IMG/VR virus record: IMGVR_UViG_3300006805_000145
Location: 1-25,166 of that record
Strand: one strand, 5' to 3'
Origin: a virus
Length of the DNA: 25,166 nt
Shown: piece by piece, positions 1,791-21,309 of the stretch
Layout of the letters: each line of letters opens with the position of its first letter
Numbering within the stretch: position 1 is the first letter of the stretch
The notes under the pieces: model-generated
Database searches by the model: none
The model's input: the letters and a program-made list of their open reading frames with translations, nothing else
What the model was told of the DNA's origin: nothing
Program-made: the position numbers and the translations under genes

Positions 1791-2192
1791 ATGTTAAGAT
1801 GTTTAAACTGTGGAGAAAATAGAGAAGAGAATTATTTCTCAAAGACTAAAAATAAAAGTAAGACAGTTGATGTTTTACCTTATCACTTTTGGTTAAAAAA
1901 ATGTAAGATATGTCAAGGAGTAAAAACATTAAAGGGTAGTTATAATAAACCTAATTTAAACGATAAATTAGAACAAAAATTAAAAAAACAATATCAACTA
2001 TCAAAAGAATGTTTAAGTTTCTTAGAAGAGCTTAAAAGAAGAAAGGGATATATAGATTACGTAGATAGTTTTAGAATGTTACTATACTTTGATGAAACAT
2101 TCGGATATATATCAACAGAATTAGATGATATGAAAGTAGAAGAACAATTAGTATTTATGTATAATAAACTTCTTGAAAAAATAAATGAATAA
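1791..2192 (+). CDS. Zinc-ribbon protein B (paralog of the gene at 1148)
   Basis: 133 residues with the same layout as the gene at 1148: Cys4/Cys7 and Cys38/Cys41 as a zinc ribbon, a Lys-rich linker (about 42-68), and a helical C-terminal domain containing LKRRKGY, DSFRMLLYF, FGYISTELDDM and EEQLVFMYNKLLE. I recall similar C-terminal segments in small proteins of Bacteroidota phages, without known function. It begins 41 bp after the terminator, so it may have its own promoter; TAACTTTA at 1770-1777 is one mismatch from the -7 consensus TAnnTTTG, a weak candidate. It overlaps the next gene by 8 bp. Confidence 0.7.
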   Translation: MLRCLNCGENREENYFSKTKNKSKTVDVLPYHFWLKKCKICQGVKTLKGSYNKPNLNDKLEQKLKKQYQLSKECLSFLEELKRRKGYIDYVDSFRMLLYFDETFGYISTELDDMKVEEQLVFMYNKLLEKINE

Positions 2193-2445
2193 AATGAAAA
2201 AACTACACGAAATGTTTCCAATAATTTTTAAAAAACCTGAAAAAGTAAGTAAAGAACTTCTATCATTTGAAGAATGGTGTGATGAATATTTTTCAAAAGT
2301 AGGTGAAGAAGACGCTAAAAATTTGCTGAACATTGCCACTATCACAAATGATTTAGATAGATATGAAGTAGTTTGTATAAGAAGAAGATTGGCAGAACTA
2401 CAACAACTTGAAAGAGATATAAAATTATCTGAACTGGGAATATAA
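2185..2445 (+). CDS. Hypothetical 86-residue protein, first member of the cassette array
   Basis: The start at 2185 overlaps the upstream gene by 8 bp (ATGAATAA); a second in-frame ATG at 2194 has the better A-rich leader, so the true product may be 83 residues. It is an acidic helical protein with FEEWCDEYFSKVGEEDA in the middle and a Leu/Arg-rich helix (IRRRLAELQQLERD) near the end. The last ten residues, RDIKLSELGI, recur with small changes at the ends of other genes here. Directly after the stop comes spacer copy A. No family is recognised. Confidence 0.6.
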   Translation: MNKMKKLHEMFPIIFKKPEKVSKELLSFEEWCDEYFSKVGEEDAKNLLNIATITNDLDRYEVVCIRRRLAELQQLERDIKLSELGI

Positions 2446-2490
2446 ATCTGACTAAGCAGAACAACTTAGACTAAGAAAGAATAAAAATAA
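2446..2490 (+). repeat. Cassette spacer repeat, copy A
   Basis: The spacer from the stop of the 2185 gene to the start of the 2491 gene. It begins ATCTGACTAAGCAG, with arms CTAAG (2452-2456) and CTTAG (2465-2469) around the loop CAGAACAA, then a second ACTAAG and the A-rich leader AAAGAATAAAAA before the ATG. It is almost identical to copies C and F over about 40 bp. Confidence 0.9.
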
Positions 2491-2751
2491 ATGAAAAATG
2501 AAATATTAGAAGTTAAAAAACAATGGGATTGTGAATCTTTATCAAAACCATTTAAAAAAGATATTAATCCTTATAAAAATAATTGGACTATTGAAAATAG
2601 TATTGAATTTAAGGATGAAAATTGTGATATTATAAATGGTTATTGTCTAACTTTATATAAAAATGATGAATATTTTACATCACTATTTGATCAAAAACAA
2701 TATCCAAGTGATTCATTGTTTAGAAAAATAATAGAATTAGATAGAAAGTAA
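2491..2751 (+). CDS. Hypothetical 86-residue protein in the cassette array
   Basis: An acidic protein with about equal helix and strand tendency and aromatic residues in the middle (Trp, Tyr and Phe around NNWTIENSIEF and DEYFTSLFDQ). It has no motif or family I recognise, and no signal peptide or membrane segment. It starts directly after spacer copy A, and its stop codon supplies the first A of spacer copy B. It is therefore one unit of the modular array. Confidence 0.6.
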   Translation: MKNEILEVKKQWDCESLSKPFKKDINPYKNNWTIENSIEFKDENCDIINGYCLTLYKNDEYFTSLFDQKQYPSDSLFRKIIELDRK

Positions 2752-2784
2752 TCTGACTAAGCAGAATAAAACTAAATTAATAAA
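2751..2784 (+). repeat. Cassette spacer repeat, copy B (degenerate)
   Basis: It begins ATCTGACTAAGCAGAATAAA at the stop codon of the 2491 gene. The left arm CTAAG (2757-2761) is intact, but the expected right arm CTTAG is replaced by ACTAAATT, so the hairpin is lost. The loop variant CAGAATAAA is shared with copy E. Confidence 0.8.
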
Positions 2785-3054
2785 ATGAATAAAGAAGAAA
2801 TAATTAATTTATTGATGGGAAATATAGAATCTATTACAAATAACTATAATAACCCAATTGGTACATATTATCCAGAAAGAAGAATAGCATTTAAAGGTAA
2901 TACATATTTAATATTTGATGCTGAATATATGAGTAATGAAGAGTGGATAGAAGATATGTATGATAATAACCACCCATATTTAGAAGAAATAATAAAAGGA
3001 ATTGAGTATTACTATGAACAAGTTAAATCTTATGGTGGTGAATTAAAAAAATAA
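2785..3054 (+). CDS. Hypothetical 89-residue acidic protein in the cassette array
   Basis: An acidic soluble protein, with an N-terminal helix (NKEEIINLLMGNIESI), a short beta-like segment (RRIAFKGNTYLIFDAEYM) and a C-terminal helix (about residues 64-85). Size and charge would fit an anti-host or inhibitor protein, as many small acidic early phage proteins are, but nothing specific supports that. It is flanked by spacer copies B and C, the latter starting at the final A of its stop codon. Confidence 0.6.
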   Translation: MNKEEIINLLMGNIESITNNYNNPIGTYYPERRIAFKGNTYLIFDAEYMSNEEWIEDMYDNNHPYLEEIIKGIEYYYEQVKSYGGELKK

Positions 3055-3103
3055 TCTGACTAAGCAGAACAACTTAGACTAAGAAATAATAAAAAAGAAA
3101 CAA
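3054..3103 (+). repeat. Cassette spacer repeat, copy C
   Basis: It begins ATCTGACTAAGCAG at the stop codon of the 2785 gene. Arms CTAAG (3060-3064) and CTTAG (3073-3077) flank the loop CAGAACAA; ACTAAG (3078-3083) and an A-rich leader lead to the ATG at 3104. It matches copies A and F closely. Confidence 0.9.
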
Positions 3104-3262
3104 ATGGAATTATTTGCAAGAATACCAAGTGGATATAAATCAAAAATTGTAGCAAGTAATGAAGCACAATTTTATATCTACAAGGGATGGACAATATTAG
3201 AAATAAGAAACAGCTTCTTCATAGACTATGTTACGTTAATAAAAAAGAAGAAGAAAAAATAA
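3104..3262 (+). CDS. Small 52-residue basic protein in the cassette array
   Basis: A 52-codon ORF between spacer copies C and D, whose position and exact fit support it as a real gene. The product has a beta-like body (MELFARIPSGYKSKIVASN, then FYIYKGWTILEIRN) and ends in a run of seven lysines. The basic tail could contact nucleic acid or the membrane surface (inference). It has no known family. Its stop at 3260-3262 provides the first base of spacer copy D, as in the neighbouring units. Confidence 0.6.
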   Translation: MELFARIPSGYKSKIVASNEAQFYIYKGWTILEIRNSFFIDYVTLIKKKKKK

Positions 3263-3334
3263 TCTGACTAAGCAGAACAACTTAGTATAACTCTTTGTGA
3301 AAACAAAGTAGACCAATAAAGAATAAAAAATGAA
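3262..3334 (+). repeat. Cassette spacer repeat, copy D, with an extra GAAA-loop hairpin
   Basis: Arms CTAAG (3268-3272) and CTTAG (3281-3285) flank CAGAACAA as in the other copies. An additional segment of about 23 bp then interrupts the spacer and forms a second hairpin, CTTTGT (3293-3298), loop GAAA, ACAAAG (3303-3308). After it the spacer resumes with AGACCAATAAAGAATAAAAA, comparable to the end of copy A. Confidence 0.85.
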
Positions 3335-3658
3335 ATGAAAGTATTAAGAAAACTATTAGGAATCGATGAGATATTAGAGTTCCTAAAAAAAGGACAAATT
3401 ATAAATGAAGGGGAACGAAGATATTATATTAAAGAATTTCCATTTACATTACACGATGACTTTTGTTGTAAAAATTTTGCTACAATGAATAACCCAGTGA
3501 CAAGACCCGATAGTTTTTTATCAGTGGTAATGGCAAGAGAAACAGCAATGAGTGATAGAATTAAAGAACTTGAAAAACAATTAGAAGAAGTGAGTATTAA
3601 AGAATATGTAGAAGTAGCATCTGATGTTACACCAACACAATCTGACCAAGCAGAATAA
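3335..3658 (+). CDS. Hypothetical 107-residue protein whose end is encoded by a spacer repeat
   Basis: The start at 3335 is the only usable one; an ATG at 3330 is followed at once by TGA. The N-terminus has a helix (VLRKLLGIDEILEFLKK), the middle a small domain with adjacent cysteines (DDFCCKNF), and residues about 73-90 are a probable coiled coil (SDRIKELEKQLEEVSIKEY). The last residues, QSDQAE, are translated from spacer copy E, so the gene has read into the repeat. This suggests that an earlier stop was lost or that the gene was fused to the spacer. The family is unknown. Confidence 0.6.
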   Translation: MKVLRKLLGIDEILEFLKKGQIINEGERRYYIKEFPFTLHDDFCCKNFATMNNPVTRPDSFLSVVMARETAMSDRIKELEKQLEEVSIKEYVEVASDVTPTQSDQAE

Positions 3659-3664
3659 ACTTGG
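3640..3664 (+). repeat. Cassette spacer repeat, copy E (covarying variant)
   Basis: A variant ATCTGACCAAGCAGAATAAA in which both arms have changed together: CCAAG (3646-3650) pairs with CTTGG (3660-3664) in place of CTAAG with CTTAG. Its first part is translated as the C-terminus of the 3335 gene. Confidence 0.8.
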
Positions 3665-3704
3665 AACATAAAACAATAAAAATGTAGTGAATGAATTTAA
3701 ATTA

Positions 3705-3776
3705 ATGTTAGGTGATAATATGGAATCAATACAAGAATTTGAATTATTAGAAAAATTATCACAATTTGGAATATAA
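3705..3776 (+). pseudogene. Very short ORF or remnant keeping only the KLSQFGI tail
   Basis: A frame opens at GTG 3687 (29 residues) or ATG 3705 (23 residues) and ends EKLSQFGI, followed directly by spacer copy F. The ATG in the usual leader position (3682) is followed at once by TAG, and the ATG at 3691 reaches a stop after four codons. The simplest reading is a decayed cassette that retains the 3' end of a larger gene. Alternatively it is a genuine micro-protein starting at 3705. The shared tail links it to the proteins at 2185 and 3824. Confidence 0.45.
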
Positions 3777-3823
3777 ATCTGACTAAGCAGAACAACTTAG
3801 ACTAAGAAAGAATAAAAAAAGAA
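3776..3823 (+). repeat. Cassette spacer repeat, copy F
   Basis: It runs from the stop of the short ORF to the ATG at 3824. Arms CTAAG (3783-3787) and CTTAG (3796-3800) flank CAGAACAA, followed by ACTAAGAAAGAATAAAAA as in copy A. It is the last copy in the array. Confidence 0.9.
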
Positions 3824-4075
3824 ATGATGATTGAAATTTATGGTGATATAAAAGACACTAATAAAACATATGTTTATGTTGTTGGCTCAACTCCAGTTAT
3901 TAATAGAGAATTGATTTTGGTAAATTATAACTCTATTGATTTAATGATACCAAAGGAAAATATAATTTATGTTAGAGGTATAGAAATTAAAACCGATACT
4001 AAAGAATTTCAACGTATAAAAGGAATTATAAATTCACAAGAAAGAGATGAAAAACTATCACAATTAGGAATATAA
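3824..4075 (+). CDS. Hypothetical 83-residue protein with RDEKLSQLGI tail, last array member
   Basis: A mostly beta protein by pattern (alternating hydrophobics in TYVYVVGSTPVI, RELILVNY, ENIIYVRGIEI) followed by a C-terminal helix and the tail RDEKLSQLGI. Either ATG 3824 or ATG 3827 could be used. Unlike the other tail-bearing genes it is not followed by the spacer repeat, only by 23 bp of A-rich leader, so the array ends here. No family is recognised; the segment YVVGSTPVINREL hints at an RNA-binding-like small barrel, but this is a guess. Confidence 0.6.
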   Translation: MMIEIYGDIKDTNKTYVYVVGSTPVINRELILVNYNSIDLMIPKENIIYVRGIEIKTDTKEFQRIKGIINSQERDEKLSQLGI

Positions 4076-4098: not shown

Positions 4099-4461
4099 AT
4101 GACTATTTCACAATTTAAAAGAGAAATGATTAACAAATCATCATTTATACCAGACTTTATACAAACAACAAGTTCATTAGATCATGCAGTATGGAACAAT
4201 ATGAGATATATTAGTGACCTATTAACAGAATTAGTAACAGATAAAGTAATTAAAGAAAACTCTATTAATGTTTTAATACTAAAATTCGATATAGAATTAG
4301 AAATGATAGGTGATGTAAGTGATAAAGTATTTACTATACAAGAATATTATGAAGAATTCTTAGATTATATGTTAGAAAGATGTTTAGAAGAAGAAATGTA
4401 TGAATCTGCTGCTAATATAAGAAACTTTATTACAACCTATAAAAATAAGTATGACTTTTAA
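4099..4461 (+). CDS. UVR-motif-like helical protein, 120 residues
   Basis: An acidic, mainly helical protein. Residues about 92-111 contain LERCLEEEMYESAANIRNFI, which fits the UVR motif (a coiled-coil hairpin in UvrB, UvrC and McsA with the core YE-AA-IR). In those proteins the motif mediates protein-protein contact, so the same is likely here; the partner is unknown. I recall similar tails in small proteins of Bacteroidota phages. The stop overlaps the sigma-factor start by one base (TAATG), so the two are probably translationally coupled and may act together. Confidence 0.65.
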   Translation: MTISQFKREMINKSSFIPDFIQTTSSLDHAVWNNMRYISDLLTELVTDKVIKENSINVLILKFDIELEMIGDVSDKVFTIQEYYEEFLDYMLERCLEEEMYESAANIRNFITTYKNKYDF

Positions 4462-5048
4462 TGATAACAGAAAAAGATTATAATAAATTAAACGATTGGT
4501 GTTTATATAATAGATTTAAATTAAGTATAAAATATGATGAATATCAAGATATAATACATAATTTTATATTAGAAAGATATAACTTAGTATTTAATAGATT
4601 TAATAAAATTAAACAAAAGAAGAAATGGGATGAGTATTTATTTATTAGTTTTAGATTTTTCTGTATAGATAGTATTAAAAAAGAAAACAAAAATATTAAT
4701 ATAAGTTTTGATATAGAAAACCAATTATACTTATCAGAAATAGATGATGATTTCTCATTAGAAGAAACAATAAAAATTGATAATATAAGACAAAATAAAA
4801 TAGAATGTATTACAAATATAGTAATGACATTAAATAAAAGTGAACAAAAACTATACTACATATACTTTGTGAAAAATCTTTCAATTAGAAAGATAGCTAA
4901 CATATTCCAAATACATTATACTACGATATTTAAAAAGATTAAACAAATAAAAAACAAAATAGAAATAGAATATGAAAATCAATGTATATCTAATAAGAGA
5001 AATGATATTATAGAAATTATTTTAAAAAGTAAAAAAATAAATGAGTAA
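4461..5048 (+). CDS. Sigma-70-family-like transcription factor
   Basis: 195 residues, the length of a small (ECF-type) sigma factor. The N-terminal half has the character of region 2: DEYQDIIHNFILERYN (about 26-41) followed by an aromatic-rich segment WDEYLFISFRFFCIDSIKKE (about 56-75) where the -10 recognition helix would be. The C-terminal part has region 4: LNKSEQKLYYIYFV, then the helix-turn-helix LSIRKIANIFQIHYTTIFKK (about 140-159). It is very basic and AT-rich. It lies just upstream of the terminase and structural genes, so it probably directs host RNA polymerase to late promoters (inference). It starts by TAATG overlap with the preceding gene and overlaps the next mini-gene by 8 bp. 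Confidence 0.7.
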   Translation: MITEKDYNKLNDWCLYNRFKLSIKYDEYQDIIHNFILERYNLVFNRFNKIKQKKKWDEYLFISFRFFCIDSIKKENKNINISFDIENQLYLSEIDDDFSLEETIKIDNIRQNKIECITNIVMTLNKSEQKLYYIYFVKNLSIRKIANIFQIHYTTIFKKIKQIKNKIEIEYENQCISNKRNDIIEIILKSKKINE

Positions 5049-5133: not shown

Positions 5134-5796
5134 ATGATTAACATATTCAAAAAAGAAGTTAATAATGTATTAGTTGTAGGTGACATGCATGAACCATTTT
5201 GTAAAGAAGGTTACTTAGAATTTTGTAAAGAGCAATATAAAAAGTATAAATGTAATAAAGTAATATTTATTGGAGATGAAATAGACTATCATGCAGCATC
5301 ATTTCATATTTCAGATCCTGATGGGATGAGTTCTGGTGATGAATTTAAGAAAGCATTAGTTGGAATATCAAAATGGTATAAAGCCTTCCCAAATGCAACC
5401 GTAATCATCGGTAACCATACAAGGATGATAATGAGAAAAGCACAAGCAGGTGGAATACCATCAACATGGATTAAAACATATAATGATGCTTTATCAGTTC
5501 CTGGGTGGAACTTTGTTATAGAATATGAATTAGATAATGTTTTGTATTTTCATGGAGAAGCAGGTGGTGCAGTTGCAAAAGCAAAACAAGAATGTAAGTC
5601 TGTTATACAAGGTCATAGACATTCAGAAGGATATATACAATATATAAATAATGATGTATTTGGAGCACAAGTAGGATGTGGGGTTGATAGAGATAGTTAT
5701 GCTATGGCATATGGATTTGCTGGTAAAAAACCAATTATAAGTTGTATGGTTGTATTAGATGGAACACCACTTCTATTAAAAATGAATAATAAATAA
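5134..5796 (+). CDS. Calcineurin-like metallophosphoesterase
   Basis: 220 residues with the ordered metal-binding motifs of the superfamily: GDMHEPF (about 16-22), GDEIDYHAASF (about 48-58), GNHTR (about 93-97, the family's GNH[DE] with Thr in the last place), HGE (about 141) and GHRH (about 160-163). Such enzymes bind two metal ions and cleave phosphomonoesters or phosphodiesters; the substrate here is unknown. Nucleic-acid ends or nucleotides are the usual guess for phage members. The protein is cytoplasmic, with no signal. The stop overlaps the ATG of the GIY-YIG remnant (TAATG). The family call is secure. Confidence 0.85.
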   Translation: MINIFKKEVNNVLVVGDMHEPFCKEGYLEFCKEQYKKYKCNKVIFIGDEIDYHAASFHISDPDGMSSGDEFKKALVGISKWYKAFPNATVIIGNHTRMIMRKAQAGGIPSTWIKTYNDALSVPGWNFVIEYELDNVLYFHGEAGGAVAKAKQECKSVIQGHRHSEGYIQYINNDVFGAQVGCGVDRDSYAMAYGFAGKKPIISCMVVLDGTPLLLKMNNK

Positions 5797-5909
5797 TGGC
5801 TGTAGTTTATAGACATAGAAGATTAGATAATAATAAAGTATTCTATATTGGTATAGGTAATAAAGAGTATAGAGCATAGAGTGCCAATAAATATAATAAT
5901 GGATTAGAT
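5796..5909 (+). pseudogene. Remnant of a GIY-YIG endonuclease (N-terminus only)
   Basis: An ORF of 27 codons starts at 5796 and ends at TAG 5877-5879. Its translation, VVYRHRRLDNNKVFYIGIG, then KEYRA, matches the first strands of phage GIY-YIG nucleases (VYRH-RLD-N-VFYIGIG). In full enzymes an Arg- and Asn-rich catalytic helix and about 100 further residues follow. Here the frame stops, though the next in-frame codons (SANKYNNGLD) still look like the RNK-W segment and run, without another stop, into the ATG of the methyltransferase-like gene at 5910. I read it as a decayed homing endonuclease. Confidence 0.6.
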
Positions 5910-6436: not shown

Positions 6437-6802
6437 ATGGCTAAGAAGAAAAAAGAAACAGAACAAGATTTAGGTATAGGAGGGTTAGGCGATTTAATTG
6501 CAAAGGTAACAGATACCCTTAACATAACTAAGTGTCAAAAATGTGAAGAAAGGCAACTAAAACTAAATAAAATGTTTAACTGGCTACAATCAAAAAGAGA
6601 AATGACAAAAGAAGAAGTAGAATTTATTTTAAGAATGATTGATATAATGAATAATGAATTGATAATAACTAATGAGGAAAGAGAAAGAATATTTATAATA
6701 TATAATGACGTAACTAATAGTAGAGTTAAGTCTTGTGTTTGTCCAGGTGTATGTAAAACTTTACTACAAAGATTAAATGGATTTTTTGAAGATGAAAAAT
6801 AA
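6437..6802 (+). CDS. Cysteine-motif protein, copy 1 of a tandem pair
   Basis: 121 residues. After a basic start (MAKKKKETEQDLGIG) come GDLIAKVTDTLNITKCQKCEER (read in two parts: GDLIAKVTDTL at about 19-29 and CQKCEER at about 34-40) and a C-terminal pair of cysteines in CVCPGVC (about 100-106). CxxC plus a second Cys group suggests a small zinc-binding domain. I recall short proteins with GDxI-xVT followed by CxxCxxR just upstream of terminase genes in Bacteroidota phages, with no function known. Its N-terminal half is nearly identical to the next gene, so the two arose by duplication. It overlaps that gene by 11 bp. Confidence 0.65.
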   Translation: MAKKKKETEQDLGIGGLGDLIAKVTDTLNITKCQKCEERQLKLNKMFNWLQSKREMTKEEVEFILRMIDIMNNELIITNEERERIFIIYNDVTNSRVKSCVCPGVCKTLLQRLNGFFEDEK

Positions 6803-7124
6803 GAAAGAACAAGATTTAGGTATTACAGGTATGGGTGATCTAATTGCAAAAGTAACAGATACTCTTGGAATTAATAAGTGTCAAAAATGTGAAGAAAGAC
6901 AATCAAGATTAAATAGATTATTCCCATGGACAAAAACAAGTAGAGATATTACACAAGAAGAAAAAGAATTAATGATTAGAATAAATAACAATAGTTTAAT
7001 TGATAATGATATGAATAACTTATTTAATTTATATAATGAATTATTTAATTCGGAATTATCAGTATGTATTGATTGTACAGGTTTAATAAAGAAGATGATT
7101 GAAAGAATAAATGTATTCATATAA
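6792..7124 (+). CDS. Cysteine-motif protein, copy 2 of a tandem pair
   Basis: 110 residues from ATG 6792; a start at 6777 would add five residues, but 6792 aligns with the start of copy 1 (both continue K-EQDLGI). It shows the same GDLIAKVTDTL and CQKCEER as copy 1, then LNRLFPWTKTSRDIT, and a second pair of cysteines in CIDC near the end. The N-terminal 40 residues are almost unchanged between copies even at DNA level, while the C-terminal parts have diverged, so the copies may bind the same partner or metal but act on different targets. It lies 36 bp upstream of the small terminase. Confidence 0.65.
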   Translation: MKNKKEQDLGITGMGDLIAKVTDTLGINKCQKCEERQSRLNRLFPWTKTSRDITQEEKELMIRINNNSLIDNDMNNLFNLYNELFNSELSVCIDCTGLIKKMIERINVFI

Positions 7125-9402: not shown

Positions 9403-9885
9403 ATGTTTACAATTTCAAGTAGTATTCAGTCTTATATAGACGCAATGGTTGAAGAGATTAAAGCAGATGCACCAGTTAGTTCAGGTGATTTAAGAAACTC
9501 TATTCAAAGTGATATTGTATTAGATGAGAATGGTTATATAGTAAACATATTAATGAATGAATATGGTGAGTTTCAAGATAAAGGTGTTAATGGAACAGAG
9601 ATTAGTTGGGGTTCACCTTTTAGTTTTAAGAAAATGATGTCACCTTCATTATTAGATAAATGGATAGTTAAGAAAGGTATTGCACCAAGAGGTAGTGGTG
9701 GTGAGTTTTTAAGTAGAAGTGGATTGAAATTCGCGATAGCAAGAAGTATAATGATAAAAGGTATAAGACCTAAAAACTTTATAGAACCAAATATAGATCC
9801 GAAATTAGAAGGATTAGCTAATTTAACAGCAGAAGAGATTTGGGATAATTTCGTTGAACAAGAAAATAAAAAAGATAATAAGTAA
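9403..9885 (+). CDS. HK97 gp10-like head-tail joining protein
   Basis: 160 residues. The pattern APVSSGDLRNSIQSD (about 24-38), EYGEFQDKGVNGTE (about 53-66), SPFSFKKMMSP, then a C-terminal helix ARSIMIKGIRPKNFIEP (about 125-141) is that of the gp10 family of neck/tail-completion proteins (AP-xTGxLRxSI, YxxxxxxG, and a C-terminal RPF-like segment). It is expected in the connector between portal and tail tube. Its stop overlaps the start of the next gene by one base (TAATG), so the two are coupled. Confidence 0.75.
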   Translation: MFTISSSIQSYIDAMVEEIKADAPVSSGDLRNSIQSDIVLDENGYIVNILMNEYGEFQDKGVNGTEISWGSPFSFKKMMSPSLLDKWIVKKGIAPRGSGGEFLSRSGLKFAIARSIMIKGIRPKNFIEPNIDPKLEGLANLTAEEIWDNFVEQENKKDNK

Positions 9886-12800
9886 TGAGTAAAAAATTAA
9901 CATTAGATATAAACTTTATTGATACACCAAGAGATGGTGATAAATTTGGATACCAAATTAGTAATAATGGAGTTCCATTGTCATTTAATGGATTTGATGG
10001 TTGGGATAAAACATTTAAAGGTGCTTCTGATTATTCAATAGCTGCTGGTAGTATAATGGCATTTGAAGCTGATTTAACACCTTCTGTCTCTGATAACTCT
10101 GACATAGGAGCTGGTTTTGATTCATATGTTAATGTAATTAAAACTCAAAGTAATGGTAAATATATTTGTGTAGGTGGTTTTACTTCTTACCAAGGAACTT
10201 CATTATCATCAAGAAGAATATGTAGATTAAATACAGACTTTACATTAGATACTACTTTTACACCACCAGATTTTCCAGTATATGTTGAATGTATGGAAAT
10301 AGATTCTAATGATAAAATATATGTTGGTAGTAATAATGTTATTAGTGGTAAAGGTAGATTAGTTAGATTAAATGCTAATGGAACAATTGATACTGCTTAT
10401 ATGCCTGGTATTGGTTTTGATAGACCAGTAACAGCCATTAAGTTACAACCAGATGGTAAGTTAATTGTAGCTGGTTTATTTACAACATTTAATTCAACAC
10501 CAAGAAAAGGAATAGTTAGATTAACAACTGGTGGTATATTCGATACAACATTCAATGGTGTTACAACTGGGTTTGCAACCGTTCAAGATTATCCAAGAAG
10601 TATAGCAGTTCAATCAACTGGTAGAATTATAGTTGGTGGTGACTTCTATTCATATAATGGAACACCTTGTCGTAATACAATTATAATAAATGCAAATGGT
10701 TCTGCATTTTCTGGACCAGCATTCTTAGATAATTCACCAAGTGGAACTTATGGTGCTAATGTATTAAAAGTTCTTGTAGATTCATTAGATAGAATATATG
10801 TTTGTGGTAAGTTTACAAGAATAGCTAATAGTTCTACTGTTCAAAGAATAATAAGACTAACATCATTAGGTATTGAAGATACTGGTTTCAATGTTTCTGC
10901 AAGTGGTTTAACTAATGGTACAACTTCATTAACATTAGGTGGTTTTGATATGATTATAAATTCTAATGATAACTTAGTTGTTGTTGGTAACTTTACAAAT
11001 GCTGCTGGTCAACCATTTACAAATATAGCGGTATATAGTGATACTGGTGCGATTTCACCCGATAGTGAGTTTGGTACTGGAACATTTACTGCAACAGGAG
11101 CTCCTGTTATTTATTCATTGGTACAAGTTGGTACTAAATATATTGTTGGTGGTACTTTTAATAGTTATTCAACAACAGATGTTGCACCTGTATCATCACA
11201 ATTTGTTATACCACTTGAACCTAATTTAAATATTGATTTTGGTGATGGTTTAGATAATACACCTGTTACTATGTCAATTAGAAATAATAAAATATTAGTA
11301 GCGGGTGATTTTACTACATATGATACAATTAATAGTGTTGGTAAAGTTGTTAGATTAGAATCCGATGGCACTATTGATAGTACCTTTGACACAACTGGAG
11401 GTGTTCAATCTGGACCTGGTGCAGTTGTAAGTTCTTCTATAGATATTAACAATAAAGTTTATTTAGGTGGTGATATTACAAGTTATAATGGAACATCAAC
11501 ATCAGGAATTGTTAGAATTAATGATGATGGTACATTTGATACAACATTTAATACAGGTAGTGGAGTTAATAATGCTATAGTAAGTTTTATACCAGATGAT
11601 TTAACAGAAGGTGTTTTATTGTTAGGTGCATTTGATAACTATAATTCAACGTCTGTTGGTTATATAGTTAAACTTACTGCAACCGGTTCTATTGATTCAA
11701 ATTTCAATACCGCAACCGGTTTTAATAATGCAACTATTTGTGGTGTAGAAGATAATGGTTCATATATAATTGGTGGTGTATTTAATCAATTTAATGGACT
11801 TACTTCATCAGTAGGTTTAATTAAACTTACTGCAACCGGTTCAAAAGATAACACATTTACGTCTAAAGCAACCAGTGGTATTTATGGATTAGCCAAACAA
11901 AGTAATGGTAAAATAATTTGTATGTCCCCTGATGTTAATAATGTATATAATGGTATAACAATAACAGGTGCTTTATTTAGAATAGATAATAATGGTTCAT
12001 ATGATGGTTCATTTAATAGTTCAACATATATACCTGGATTGGGTGGTGTAAGACAGAATTTAATTTGTATAGATGGTCAAGATAGAATCTATGTATTTTC
12101 AGTAGGAGATCAAAAGATAATAAGATTTACAAAAGATGGTACATTAGACACTTCATTCAATACAACTGAATTAACAAGTGCATCAACAAATTATATTTGG
12201 TCAATGAAGGTTTATTTTAATAATATTATTGTAGTTGGTACATTTGAGGTAAATGGTATAACAAAAAATATATGTATGTTGGATTTTAATGGTGATGTTG
12301 TTACTACAGATATTGATAATTATCAAAATATAATAAATACATATGATAACCTAACAACATTTAATACAGGTTATGGTGTTATATATTCATTATATAGTGA
12401 TAAGGTAAGAATGTTATATGAATTTGATAATGATGAAATAGTTTTAAATAATGTATTTGATACACCAGATTATGTTGAGATAACTTATACTAATGAATCA
12501 CTTACAATAGCTGATTTAATACAAGAAGTTGTAGTAAGAAGTCCTTACTTAATTATCACAAACTCTGCTTCATTTAGTTCAGTTAATTATAAGATAAGAG
12601 TATATGAAGGAAGTATATTTACAGGACCTTCTCAATCAGTATCATATGATATTGATAAAGATAAATTATTTACTGGTCAATCTAACATATATATTAATAT
12701 TAATAATTTAGTTAGAGAAAGATTAGAAGCTAATATATCTACATTTAATGATGAAACATTTTTAGATTCACAATTCTTACCAGAAAATATGAGTAAGTGG

Positions 12801-13658
12801 GTATTAGTTGATGAAACTATATTTGATGGTAGTGCAACTCAATCTTTGAATAAGTATTACTTACATGCATTAGATGGTTATCTATATAACTATGAAGAAC
12901 AAGGTTCACCTAATATATTTATTAATGGTGATAAAAGATATATTCATAGAGACCAACCACAAAGAATTTACTTTCAAACTAACTTCTTATTAGATGTTAC
13001 TGTTATGGATGAGTTTGGTAATACATACAATCCTAATTGGGAATCATTTGATATTTTAGGTGATAATAAGAAGTATATTCAAAGTTTCCAAGTAGATACA
13101 TATTTTAGTGGTTATACTGGTGCGAGACCACCTTATTTAACAACATATATTGATTATATATTCACTTATAAAAGTGATAATAATGGTGATGAGTTAACTG
13201 GTAGAACATATGATGTTACACAAAGATTCTATATTTATGATGATTGTAAATATGATTTATATACTATTGTTTATAAGAATAAGTTTGGTGTATTAGAGAG
13301 TATTCCATTTTCAAGAAAGACTATGAAATCGGTAGAATCAAAAGGAGTTGATTATGAAAGAAGTATATTAGACTATAATGGTAATTATGATATTACAAGA
13401 CATACAAGTAAAGAGTATAATGTAAATGGTTATGAAAGTTGGACTTTAAATACTAACTGGTTACCCGAATATATGAATGATGCTTTTGAAGAATTAAATT
13501 TATCAGAAGAGGTTTGGATTATAATGGGTGATGATAGTATTATACCTGTTATTAAAGAAGATAAAAAGATTGATTTTAAGACAGTATTAAATGATAAGTT
13601 AATACAATATACCTTAAAGGTAAAAATGAGCCACCAGGTGATTAAAAACATACTATAA
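9885..13658 (+). CDS. Large tail protein with about 14 delta-60 beta-propeller repeats
   Basis: 1257 residues. A short N-terminal part (to about 60) is followed by a long array (about 60-810) of repeats with the delta-60 pattern: GK-x-V-GGxF, then SYNGT, then RLxxDGTxDTTFN. I count about 14 repeats, each near 50-55 residues, enough for two seven-bladed propellers. Clear blades include PDGKLIVAGLFTTF, TGRIIVGGDFYSYNGT, NNKVYLGGDITSYNGT and DDGTFDTTFNTGSG. Blades around 11668 and 11821 share a 22-bp identical stretch 153 bp apart, a trace of recent duplication. Residues about 810-1257 form a separate domain I recall from Bacteroidota phage tail proteins (for example RVYEGS, NINNLVRERLE, YNVNGYESWTLNTNWL). 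Probable location: tail tip or side fibre, with the propellers binding the host surface (inference). Confidence 0.7.
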   Translation: MSKKLTLDINFIDTPRDGDKFGYQISNNGVPLSFNGFDGWDKTFKGASDYSIAAGSIMAFEADLTPSVSDNSDIGAGFDSYVNVIKTQSNGKYICVGGFTSYQGTSLSSRRICRLNTDFTLDTTFTPPDFPVYVECMEIDSNDKIYVGSNNVISGKGRLVRLNANGTIDTAYMPGIGFDRPVTAIKLQPDGKLIVAGLFTTFNSTPRKGIVRLTTGGIFDTTFNGVTTGFATVQDYPRSIAVQSTGRIIVGGDFYSYNGTPCRNTIIINANGSAFSGPAFLDNSPSGTYGANVLKVLVDSLDRIYVCGKFTRIANSSTVQRIIRLTSLGIEDTGFNVSASGLTNGTTSLTLGGFDMIINSNDNLVVVGNFTNAAGQPFTNIAVYSDTGAISPDSEFGTGTFTATGAPVIYSLVQVGTKYIVGGTFNSYSTTDVAPVSSQFVIPLEPNLNIDFGDGLDNTPVTMSIRNNKILVAGDFTTYDTINSVGKVVRLESDGTIDSTFDTTGGVQSGPGAVVSSSIDINNKVYLGGDITSYNGTSTSGIVRINDDGTFDTTFNTGSGVNNAIVSFIPDDLTEGVLLLGAFDNYNSTSVGYIVKLTATGSIDSNFNTATGFNNATICGVEDNGSYIIGGVFNQFNGLTSSVGLIKLTATGSKDNTFTSKATSGIYGLAKQSNGKIICMSPDVNNVYNGITITGALFRIDNNGSYDGSFNSSTYIPGLGGVRQNLICIDGQDRIYVFSVGDQKIIRFTKDGTLDTSFNTTELTSASTNYIWSMKVYFNNIIVVGTFEVNGITKNICMLDFNGDVVTTDIDNYQNIINTYDNLTTFNTGYGVIYSLYSDKVRMLYEFDNDEIVLNNVFDTPDYVEITYTNESLTIADLIQEVVVRSPYLIITNSASFSSVNYKIRVYEGSIFTGPSQSVSYDIDKDKLFTGQSNIYININNLVRERLEANISTFNDETFLDSQFLPENMSKWVLVDETIFDGSATQSLNKYYLHALDGYLYNYEEQGSPNIFINGDKRYIHRDQPQRIYFQTNFLLDVTVMDEFGNTYNPNWESFDILGDNKKYIQSFQVDTYFSGYTGARPPYLTTYIDYIFTYKSDNNGDELTGRTYDVTQRFYIYDDCKYDLYTIVYKNKFGVLESIPFSRKTMKSVESKGVDYERSILDYNGNYDITRHTSKEYNVNGYESWTLNTNWLPEYMNDAFEELNLSEEVWIIMGDDSIIPVIKEDKKIDFKTVLNDKLIQYTLKVKMSHQVIKNIL

Positions 13659-15853: not shown

Positions 15854-16255
15854 ATGGATATATTTTTATCAAATAAGTTATATTGTAAAAAGTCCAATAT
15901 ACCAGGTGCTGGTTATGGAGTATTTACAAAAGAAGATATTAAAAAAGGAGAAGTAATAGAAGTTTCAAGATTTATAAAAATAGATTTAGATTTATATGAC
16001 TATCTAAATAAAGATATAATTAATATATTATATAATTTTCCGAAAAAAATGCCTAAATTTTTTAGTATAGTTTTTGGTTATGGTTCATTATATAATTCAT
16101 CATTAGATAATATAACAAATAATGTTGATTGGATTACAGATGAAGAAAATGATGTTTTTATCTATTCAAGTGTTGTTGATATAAAAAAAGATAGTGAATT
16201 ATATATATATTATAATAACCAAGAATTCAATGATATAAAAAAACAACAAACATAA
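15854..16255 (+). CDS. SET-domain protein (putative lysine methyltransferase)
   Basis: 133 residues, about the size of a minimal SET domain. IPGAGYGVFTKEDIKKGEVI (about 16-35) is the N-terminal SET motif (GxGxGVFA--I--GE-I); FGYGSLYNSSLDNITNNVDW (about 72-91) corresponds to the NHS-xPN motif that forms the cofactor and substrate site, and DSELYIYYNN (about 112-121) to the C-terminal EL-xDY motif with the catalytic Tyr region. The usual His of NHS is Ser here, so activity is uncertain. SET proteins methylate lysines using S-adenosylmethionine; the target is unknown. It sits inside the tail operon, with a stop overlapping the chaperone start (TAATG), between 26-bp direct repeats: cargo rather than a structural gene. 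Confidence 0.75.
   Translation: MDIFLSNKLYCKKSNIPGAGYGVFTKEDIKKGEVIEVSRFIKIDLDLYDYLNKDIINILYNFPKKMPKFFSIVFGYGSLYNSSLDNITNNVDWITDEENDVFIYSSVVDIKKDSELYIYYNNQEFNDIKKQQT
16225..16250 (+). repeat. 26-bp direct repeat, right copy (end of the SET gene)
   Basis: Identical to 15819-15844 over 26 bp, including a run of seven A. It encodes the last residues of the SET protein (FNDIKKQQ, then T) and lies 4 bp before the chaperone start codon. Confidence 0.95.
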
Positions 16256-20394: not shown

Positions 20395-21309
20395 ATGGCA
20401 ACAACTTTAACTATTAACTCTAATTATATTGGAGAAGAAGCAGGACAAATTTTTGGTAAAGCATTTAGAGAAGCTAATACTATCTCAAGAGGTTTAGTAA
20501 ATGTTATTCCTAATATAAATAAGATAGCTTATTTAAGAAAAATCGACTACACAGCAGGTAGACAAGACTTCGCTTGTGGATGGAACCCAATTGGTACAGT
20601 AGCTTTTAACGAAGTTTCATTAGAGCCAAAGGTTATTGAAATTCCTTTAGAATTGTGTAAACAAGACTTTAGAGATGTATTTGATCAAGCTAAAATGGGA
20701 TTCTCTTCTTGGAACAAAAACTTCGAAGGATTGGATGAAGCAACTGCAATCACTGCAGAAATCCTTTTAGACACAGCAGTAGCAACTGATAATGATATGT
20801 GGGTTGGACCAACATCATCTGCAACTGGTAGATTTACAGGATTTATTCCTCAATTACAAGAAGTTAGTTCAGGTGCTATCAAAGTAACTGCAACAGCTTC
20901 TGTAACATCAACAAACGTTGCTGGAGAATTAGCAAGAATGTTAGTAGCAATACCAACTTCTATTAAAACTGCACCAGATGCTGTATTTGCTATCTCAACA
21001 AACGTTGCTGATGCACTTTCAAATGCACAAAATATCGGTCAAATAACTTACGGTACTGTATTAAACGAAAATCAATTAAGATGGGGTAGATATACATTAG
21101 AAGTTATTGATGCATTACCAGATGATACAATGGTTTTCTACCAAAGAAAGAATTTAGTATTCGGTACTGGTCTTTTATCTGACCACAATGAAATCTATAT
21201 TGATTCTACTTCACCAGAGAGAATTAAAGAAGGAAATGTAGTTATTAAAATGGTTTACTCTGCAGGTACTGCAATCGTTAGACCATCAGAAGTAGTTCTT
21301 TATAACTAA
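20395..21309 (+). CDS. Major capsid protein (HK97-fold type, putative)
   Basis: 304 residues. Position right after the protease-scaffold gene, its length and its composition support the major capsid protein. Segments such as YLRKIDYTAGRQDFACGWNP, LEPKVIEIPLELCKQDF and FIPQLQ are of the kind found in HK97-fold capsid proteins of Bacteroidota phages; the C-terminal half has the repeating domain pattern (VVIKMVYSAGTAIVRPSEVV). The codon choice differs from the neighbours: many C-ending codons (TTC, AAC, GAC, ATC), as expected of a very highly expressed gene. There is no extended N-terminal delta domain, consistent with a separate scaffold. A strong inverted repeat follows the stop. Confidence 0.75.
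   Translation: MATTLTINSNYIGEEAGQIFGKAFREANTISRGLVNVIPNINKIAYLRKIDYTAGRQDFACGWNPIGTVAFNEVSLEPKVIEIPLELCKQDFRDVFDQAKMGFSSWNKNFEGLDEATAITAEILLDTAVATDNDMWVGPTSSATGRFTGFIPQLQEVSSGAIKVTATASVTSTNVAGELARMLVAIPTSIKTAPDAVFAISTNVADALSNAQNIGQITYGTVLNENQLRWGRYTLEVIDALPDDTMVFYQRKNLVFGTGLLSDHNEIYIDSTSPERIKEGNVVIKMVYSAGTAIVRPSEVVLYN

Follow-up and report, generated by a model that had tools for sequence, protein, structure and literature searches.

The virus record IMGVR_UViG_3300006805_000145 of IMG/VR (25,166 bases in full, 27% G+C, no end repeats; hereafter the window) contains an array of seven small co-directional open reading frames (ORFs), g1 to g7 (2194-4075), whose junctions carry six copies, c1 to c6, of one short spacer. 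This composite element, repeated at junctions between phage accessory genes, is a real feature, and an unusual one for its group. Judging from the pairing potential and placement of the copies, we suggest that the spacer may be a composite intercistronic mRNA element, in which a pseudoknot and the leader that follows it gate the translation of g2-g7, and which has been multiplied at gene ends; we hold this reading tentatively, at slightly less than an even chance. Because the knot and an A-rich start region recur together at the junctions, the genes are probably under one common control element in the mRNA, copied from gene to gene.

A conserved spacer at the junctions of seven small genes

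The 25 kb record holds the string ATCTGACYAAGCAGAA at exactly six places, far above chance, all of them at the boundaries of the seven ORFs. Six exact matches are likewise obtained with ATCTGACYAAGCAGA (2446, 2751, 3054, 3262, 3640 and 3777), on the plus strand only and nowhere else in the window, and allowing three mismatches adds one site only, at a chance level of 1.1. The central observation of the first-pass annotation, that six spacers between small genes share one sequence, is thus borne out. Copies scattered in non-intergenic places, which would speak against a modular array, were also looked for, and the window holds none beyond the six at junctions.

The copies start 137-378 nt apart, with genes in between, and their invariant part abuts the upstream stop codon, about 18-60 nt from the next start. 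Three of them (c2, c3 and c4) take the final A of the upstream TAA as their first base, where four had been counted together with a further copy one base later; c1 and c6 both begin on the base right after the upstream stop, and c5 begins inside the ORF at 3335-3658, which terminates within the spacer (CAA TCT GAC CAA GCA GAA TAA, read as QSDQAE and a stop). The conserved part had also been described as running on to the A-rich leader of the next gene. This holds for c1 (2446-2490) and c6 (3777-3823), which carry the 3' half ACTAAGAAAGAATAAAAA exactly and are identical over 42 nt (42/42), and nearly so for c3 (3054-3103), which has a single mismatch, in ACTAAGAAAGAATAAAAA; these are the only three copies in which the whole 42-nt spacer is preserved. 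In c4 (3262-3334) the same half is displaced by an inserted GAAA-loop hairpin, CTTTGT GAAA ACAAAG (3293-3308), found in this copy only, and it is missing altogether from c2 (2751-2784), which is shortened, and from c5 (3640-3686), which diverges past the core and whose first 19 nt are in-frame coding sequence of g5. No spacer is present 5' of g1 or 3' of g7.

The spacer RNA can pair as a compact pseudoknot

The short hairpin noted at first, UCUG-ACYAAG-CAGA, is possible in all six copies, and is better read as one half of a larger structure. In five copies a second hairpin, CYAAG-...-CUURG, uses the loop of the UCUG/CAGA hairpin, so that both together form an H-type pseudoknot. The element is 23-24 nt long and consists of stem S1 (UCUG/CAGA, 4 bp), loop L1 of one A, stem S2 (CUAAG/CUUAG, 5 bp), no L2, and an L3 of ACAA or AUAAA. 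It is located at 2447-2469 in c1, 3055-3077 in c3, 3263-3285 in c4, 3641-3664 in c5 and 3778-3800 in c6; in c2, only the UCUG/CAGA hairpin is left (2752-2765).

A scan of both strands for compact H-type pseudoknots (S1 of at least 4 bp and S2 of at least 5 bp, with at least two G-C pairs in each) detected exactly five in the window, all of them in the spacers, against 0.1 per Markov-shuffled window, and none of 20,000 spacer shuffles contained one. Related phage loci have 32 compact pseudoknots per 2.02 million strand-positions, corresponding to a chance of about 3e-4 for a given spacer; because the five copies are nearly identical, they count as about one independent event. In a pseudoknot of this geometry, a single nucleotide is enough to bridge S2 on its deep-groove side, and four are enough to bridge S1 on its shallow-groove side. 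The loops found here (L1 of 1 nt, L3 of 4-5 nt) fit plus-strand RNA only, on the opposite strand their lengths would be swapped and unfavourable, and no compact pseudoknot was found on the minus strand, all of which suggests that it is the sense mRNA that functions.

The pattern of substitutions is in agreement with pairing. S1 is invariant in all six copies, and S2 pairs in five of the six with a single two-sided change, in c5, where the U-A pair at columns 8/24 has become C-G; the remaining core changes of this copy fall in L3. Three substitutions in the c5 core thus keep all 9 pairs, as random placement does in 1.4% (Watson-Crick pairs) to 5% (G-U allowed) of trials, and the support is weaker if only transitions are placed, when the pairs are kept in 3-27%. 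The energies also favour the pseudoknot: its coaxial helix totals -11.8 kcal/mol, whereas each of the two hairpins of c1 alone has -2.5 to -2.8.

Several observations weigh against a function of the pseudoknot. In c2 the UCUG/CAGA palindrome is kept exactly and the second stem is gone, so the pseudoknot is not required at every junction. The covariation is a single event that is not significant alone (shuffle control 96/500). The pseudoknot energy is an estimate without loop entropy, and the nested folds of single copies are only modestly better than those of shuffles (z -0.4 to -4.6). Moreover, no Rfam family matches the spacer, and no RNA-binding protein or ligand was identified for it.

Between the pseudoknot and the next start codon lies an A-rich unstructured stretch. 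In minimum free energy folds of c1, c3, c5 and c6 this leader is unpaired but for three outer pairs of a nested alternative, and c4 has its extra hairpin. A-rich leaders are the usual initiation region in A+T-rich phages of Bacteroidota, and these hosts are not known to make much use of Shine-Dalgarno signals. Pattern scans of the array spacers detected no forward TAnnTTTG motif and no T-run terminator, although a phage sigma factor may have promoters of another kind. The simplest reading is that the whole array is transcribed as a single polycistronic mRNA. The idea of a shared mRNA element, put forward with the original description of the spacers, is supported by these data and can be sharpened to an H-type pseudoknot followed by an A-rich leader.

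The genes of the array and the probable copying of the spacer

All seven ORFs (29-107 aa) are on the plus strand and have phage-typical codon usage in frame 0. Six, called from ORF and codon usage, are orphans: g1 (2194-2445, 83 aa), g2 (2491-2751, 86 aa), g3 (2785-3054, 89 aa), g4 (3104-3262, 52 aa, with a lysine-rich end), g5 (3335-3658, 107 aa, whose last codons, QSDQAE, are those of spacer c5) and g7 (3824-4075, 83 aa). The remaining one, g6 (3687-3776), is a 29-aa ORF with a GTG start and is possibly a remnant. None of the seven products has a match in PHROGs or Pfam; g1, g2, g3, g5 and g7 have no relatives among 50,697 phage records, and g2, g3 and g5 have none in IMG/VR. AlphaFold2 models of g3 and g7 (predicted local distance difference test scores, pLDDT, of 61 and 47) were too poor for a structure search.

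The genes had been described as mutually unrelated. By BLASTP, run with all nearby products, they are, except for the last 8-12 residues of g1 (RDIKLSELGI, within the tail ERDIKLSELGI), g6 (LEKLSQFGI, with the tail EKLSQFGI) and g7 (RDEKLSQLGI, with the tail QERDEKLSQLGI). At the DNA level, the sequences upstream of c1 and c6 and at the end of g7 resemble one another more than other gene ends do (empirical p 0.000-0.008), and the similarity of c1 and c6 runs into the coding tail (98 nt, 83%). No such resemblance is seen at the starts of the genes that follow c1 and c6, where their homology stops. It therefore seems that some spacer copies took the final codons of a gene along when they moved; in g7 the tail occurs without a spacer, so that the two are separable. 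The KLSxLGI tail, at the ends of g1 (2445), g6 (3776) and g7 (4075), is present in no other ORF of the fetched loci, and could be a functional tail, such as an interaction or degradation signal, and not merely a trace of recombination.

Since identical spacers adjoin unrelated genes, and since the c1/c6 homology ends at the next start, the comparison of copies supports a spacer that was copied independently of the genes. The identical spacers, the fusion of g5 into a spacer and the probable 29-aa remnant g6 fit repeated recombination at the junctions, although tandem duplication, which is seen nearby, and gene conversion within the genome would explain the same picture. Cassette exchange between phages is plausible; because no second genome shows a different gene set, we treat it as a hypothesis.

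Outside this record, nothing comparable to the spacer was found in the collections examined (IMG/VR scans, 84,980 genomes, a phage collection and, at up to 2 mismatches, 39 related virus records). Close kin of the record were not found either, and may be missing from the collections searched, so that this is no proof of their non-existence. A 16-mer match in IMG/VR and looser matches in IMG/VR and GTDB were rejected as single copies, almost all inside unrelated long ORFs; the 14 matches in GTDB compare with about 7-8 estimated by chance, and about half of them represent one conserved Bacteroidales coding context. Furthermore, 80 related loci and the Nonlabens phages P12024L/S contain no comparable spacer array of any sequence.

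Alternative explanations for the spacer array

The spacer might be kept mainly as a homology patch for the exchange of gene-plus-spacer units between phages, with any RNA role secondary. This would account for unrelated genes between near-identical spacers, for the c1/c6 homology entering the coding tail, for the tail without spacer in g7 and for the fusion of g5 into a spacer, and it has precedents in the PeSLs (promoter early plus stem-loop elements) of T4-type phages, as cited in PMC4503421, and in Cluster O mycobacteriophages, whose 17-bp repeats have recombined with gain or loss of genes (PMC4351075). Homology patches alone, however, predict neither a pseudoknot nor a compensated pair, at 16-42 nt the repeats are short substrates for general recombination, and our searches of other records returned no relative with different genes between the same spacers. 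We consider this explanation possible but improbable.

The palindrome TCTG-N6-CAGA could instead be a DNA operator bound by a phage or host regulator, like SPBRE and MrpR in SPbeta. Its arms and all but one of the centre bases are invariant in all six copies, c2 included, and SPBRE too was long known just as an intergenic repeat before it turned out to be a repressor site (PMC10516654). Set against this, the six sites all have the same orientation and five are fixed at a stop codon, with no forward TAnnTTTG or good sigma-70-type site alongside; the 6-nt centre is conserved, unlike that of a typical operator, and the one change in it is matched by a compensating change about 15 nt away. An operator of this kind therefore appears unlikely.

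Less likely still is tandem duplication of one ancestral gene and spacer, after which the genes diverged beyond recognition. No similarity remains outside the tails, and a spacer identity of 42/42 beside wholly diverged coding sequence needs a separate reason, such as selection or recent copying, even though g1, g6 and g7 have a C-terminal peptide in common and tandem paralogues occur nearby (p1/p2 at 6437-7124, 50% identity, and orfD/orfF).

It is very improbable that the pseudoknots are processed from the mRNA as a decoy that titrates a host type III toxin of the ToxN/CptN/TenpN type, like the pseudo-ToxI of PhiTE. The resemblance lies in multiple small A-rich pseudoknots in a phage and in a compensated U-A to C-G change that is also seen in the PhiTE repeats (PMC3475682). 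Type III antitoxins (ToxI) are direct pseudoknot repeats beside a toxin gene, whereas here genes lie between the units and the copies are dispersed without a tandem array, the element has 23-24 nt rather than 36 nt, and neither an Rfam match nor a recognisable toxin in the window was found.

Other candidates were rejected outright. An alternative code with TAA/TAG as glutamine, prompted by CAA versus TAA in c5, conflicts with 32 of 37 genes ending in TAA and with TAG (16854, 24158) and TGA also ending genes. Stop-codon readthrough stimulated by a pseudoknot is countered by stops in all three frames of the spacer, and an integron attC site by the lack of any GTT triplet, and hence of a GTTRRRY core site, in the spacers; no integrase was recognised among the window proteins scanned, which cover part of the ORFs of a record that is itself a fragment. 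No tRNA or Rfam RNA was found.

Relation to known phage elements

The closest mechanism, by analogy, would be the gene 32 operator of T4: a pseudoknot in the leader is the nucleation site for gp32, which spreads from there through unstructured A+U-rich RNA and so covers the ribosome-binding site (PMC3014915, PMC535899). As in T4, T2 and RB69, the intercistronic region has a compact H-type pseudoknot, here as pairing potential in five of six copies, and unstructured A/U-rich sequence from there to the start codon; the distance from pseudoknot start to AUG is 67 nt in T4 and about 33-72 here. However, the T4 operator serves one gene and the spacers precede five to six unrelated ones, the sequences are unrelated, and T4 has UUAA(A) repeats where the spacer has AAGAAAGAATAAAAA. 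A cognate single-strand binding protein encoded by a controlled gene, as in T4, was not found, since no array gene matches such a protein or any other family.

PeSLs are likewise repeated short composite elements between small hypervariable accessory genes, and are thought to mediate modular shuffling. The spacer differs from them in having a pseudoknot instead of a stem-loop terminator and in showing no promoter beside the structure (no plus-strand TAnnTTTG, no terminator in the spacers); shuffling was not observed, no relative with the spacer having been found. The start-associated sequences (SAS/ESAS) of Cluster K mycobacteriophages are also repeated directly before the starts of many small genes belonging to various families, and some of them contain an inverted repeat. 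Whereas SAS abuts the start codon, here no conserved sequence stands immediately 5' of the start, the start side being only A-rich, and the conserved part abuts the upstream stop; the sequences are unrelated, and the copies form a single cluster. The 17-bp dyad repeats of Cluster O are similarly short and often intergenic, with gene gain and loss by recombination between copies, but are perfect unoriented palindromes that occur genome-wide and also inside genes, in contrast to an oriented, junction-only element with a pseudoknot. SPBRE of Bacillus phage SPbeta shares with the spacer its first discovery in silico as an intergenic repeat; it is a proven operator upstream of the promoters of a master repressor regulon, whereas no promoter was seen here.

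Genomic context

The terminase large subunit encoded in the window is 54% identical to its counterpart in Nonlabens phage P12024L, the product of 20395-21309 is 38% identical to gene 2 of the same phage, and the order metallophosphoesterase, p1-type gene, terminase is common to many IMG/VR contigs (~50% identity). On this sequence evidence, the record most likely represents part of the genome of a tailed phage of Flavobacteriia, a virus of marine-type bacteria. Within it, the array lies 3' of what looks like a strong intrinsic terminator, a hairpin with a T run on the plus strand (1721-1746) preceding the gene block to which the array belongs, and 5' of a sigma-like gene (4461-5048).

Among the neighbours, orfD (1148-1540) and orfF (1791-2192) are distant paralogues, and the adjacent paralogous plus-strand genes p1 and p2, upstream of the terminase genes, have CxxC motifs; tandem duplication appears active in this region. 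A plus-strand ORF of 27 aa at 5796-5879 (MAVVYRHRRLDNNKVFYIGIGNKEYRA), ending in TAG and in frame with the following methyltransferase-like gene, has no Pfam match at such a length; we presume that it resembles the N-terminus of a GIY-YIG type endonuclease and is perhaps a remnant. Further along the plus strand, 9885-13658 encodes a probable tail or fibre protein of 1257 aa, in which the DUF5122 beta-propeller repeat occurs nine times (PF17164, E 2.6e-59). Between structural genes, 15854-16255 encodes a small lysine-methyltransferase-like protein in which a SET domain is recognised above the gathering score (Pfam PF00856, E 5.7e-8).

A possible mode of action and its implications

In the composite mRNA element that we favour, the end of the upstream frame would be followed by a minimal H-type pseudoknot and then by the unstructured A-rich leader that serves as the next gene's initiation region. 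If formed, the pseudoknot might gate translation initiation of g2-g7 as a group, probably bound by a phage protein beside the leader as gp32 is on T4 gene 32 mRNA, or might mark or stabilise cistron ends; indeed, a role in mRNA end protection or processing would give the same anatomy and is not separable from the first by sequence. In most copies the pseudoknot begins 0-2 nt past the stop, and in c5 it begins before the ORF has ended. A ribosome that reaches the end of the upstream gene would therefore melt it, coupling neighbouring genes and making structure and binding depend on upstream translation. Recombination at gene ends would have multiplied the element, at times together with the KLSxLGI tail encoded by the final codons of the gene before it, so that genes could be reordered while the stop, the control element and the start region were all kept.

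A stronger version, in which one pseudoknot translational operator has been copied before five or six unrelated tiny genes, controls them jointly and travels with new genes, is conceivable, although we regard it as doubtful. A 2010 review described the gene 32 pseudoknot of T4-type phages as possibly the sole viral case in translational autoregulation (PMC3014915), and it is the pseudoknot that sets the spacer apart from known junction elements. If this version is correct, the repeated pseudoknot would be a multi-gene form of the translational operator in a Bacteroidota phage, insertion between two spacers would be enough to bring an acquired gene into the regulon, and the array would show how new genes can plug into a phage operon without promoters.

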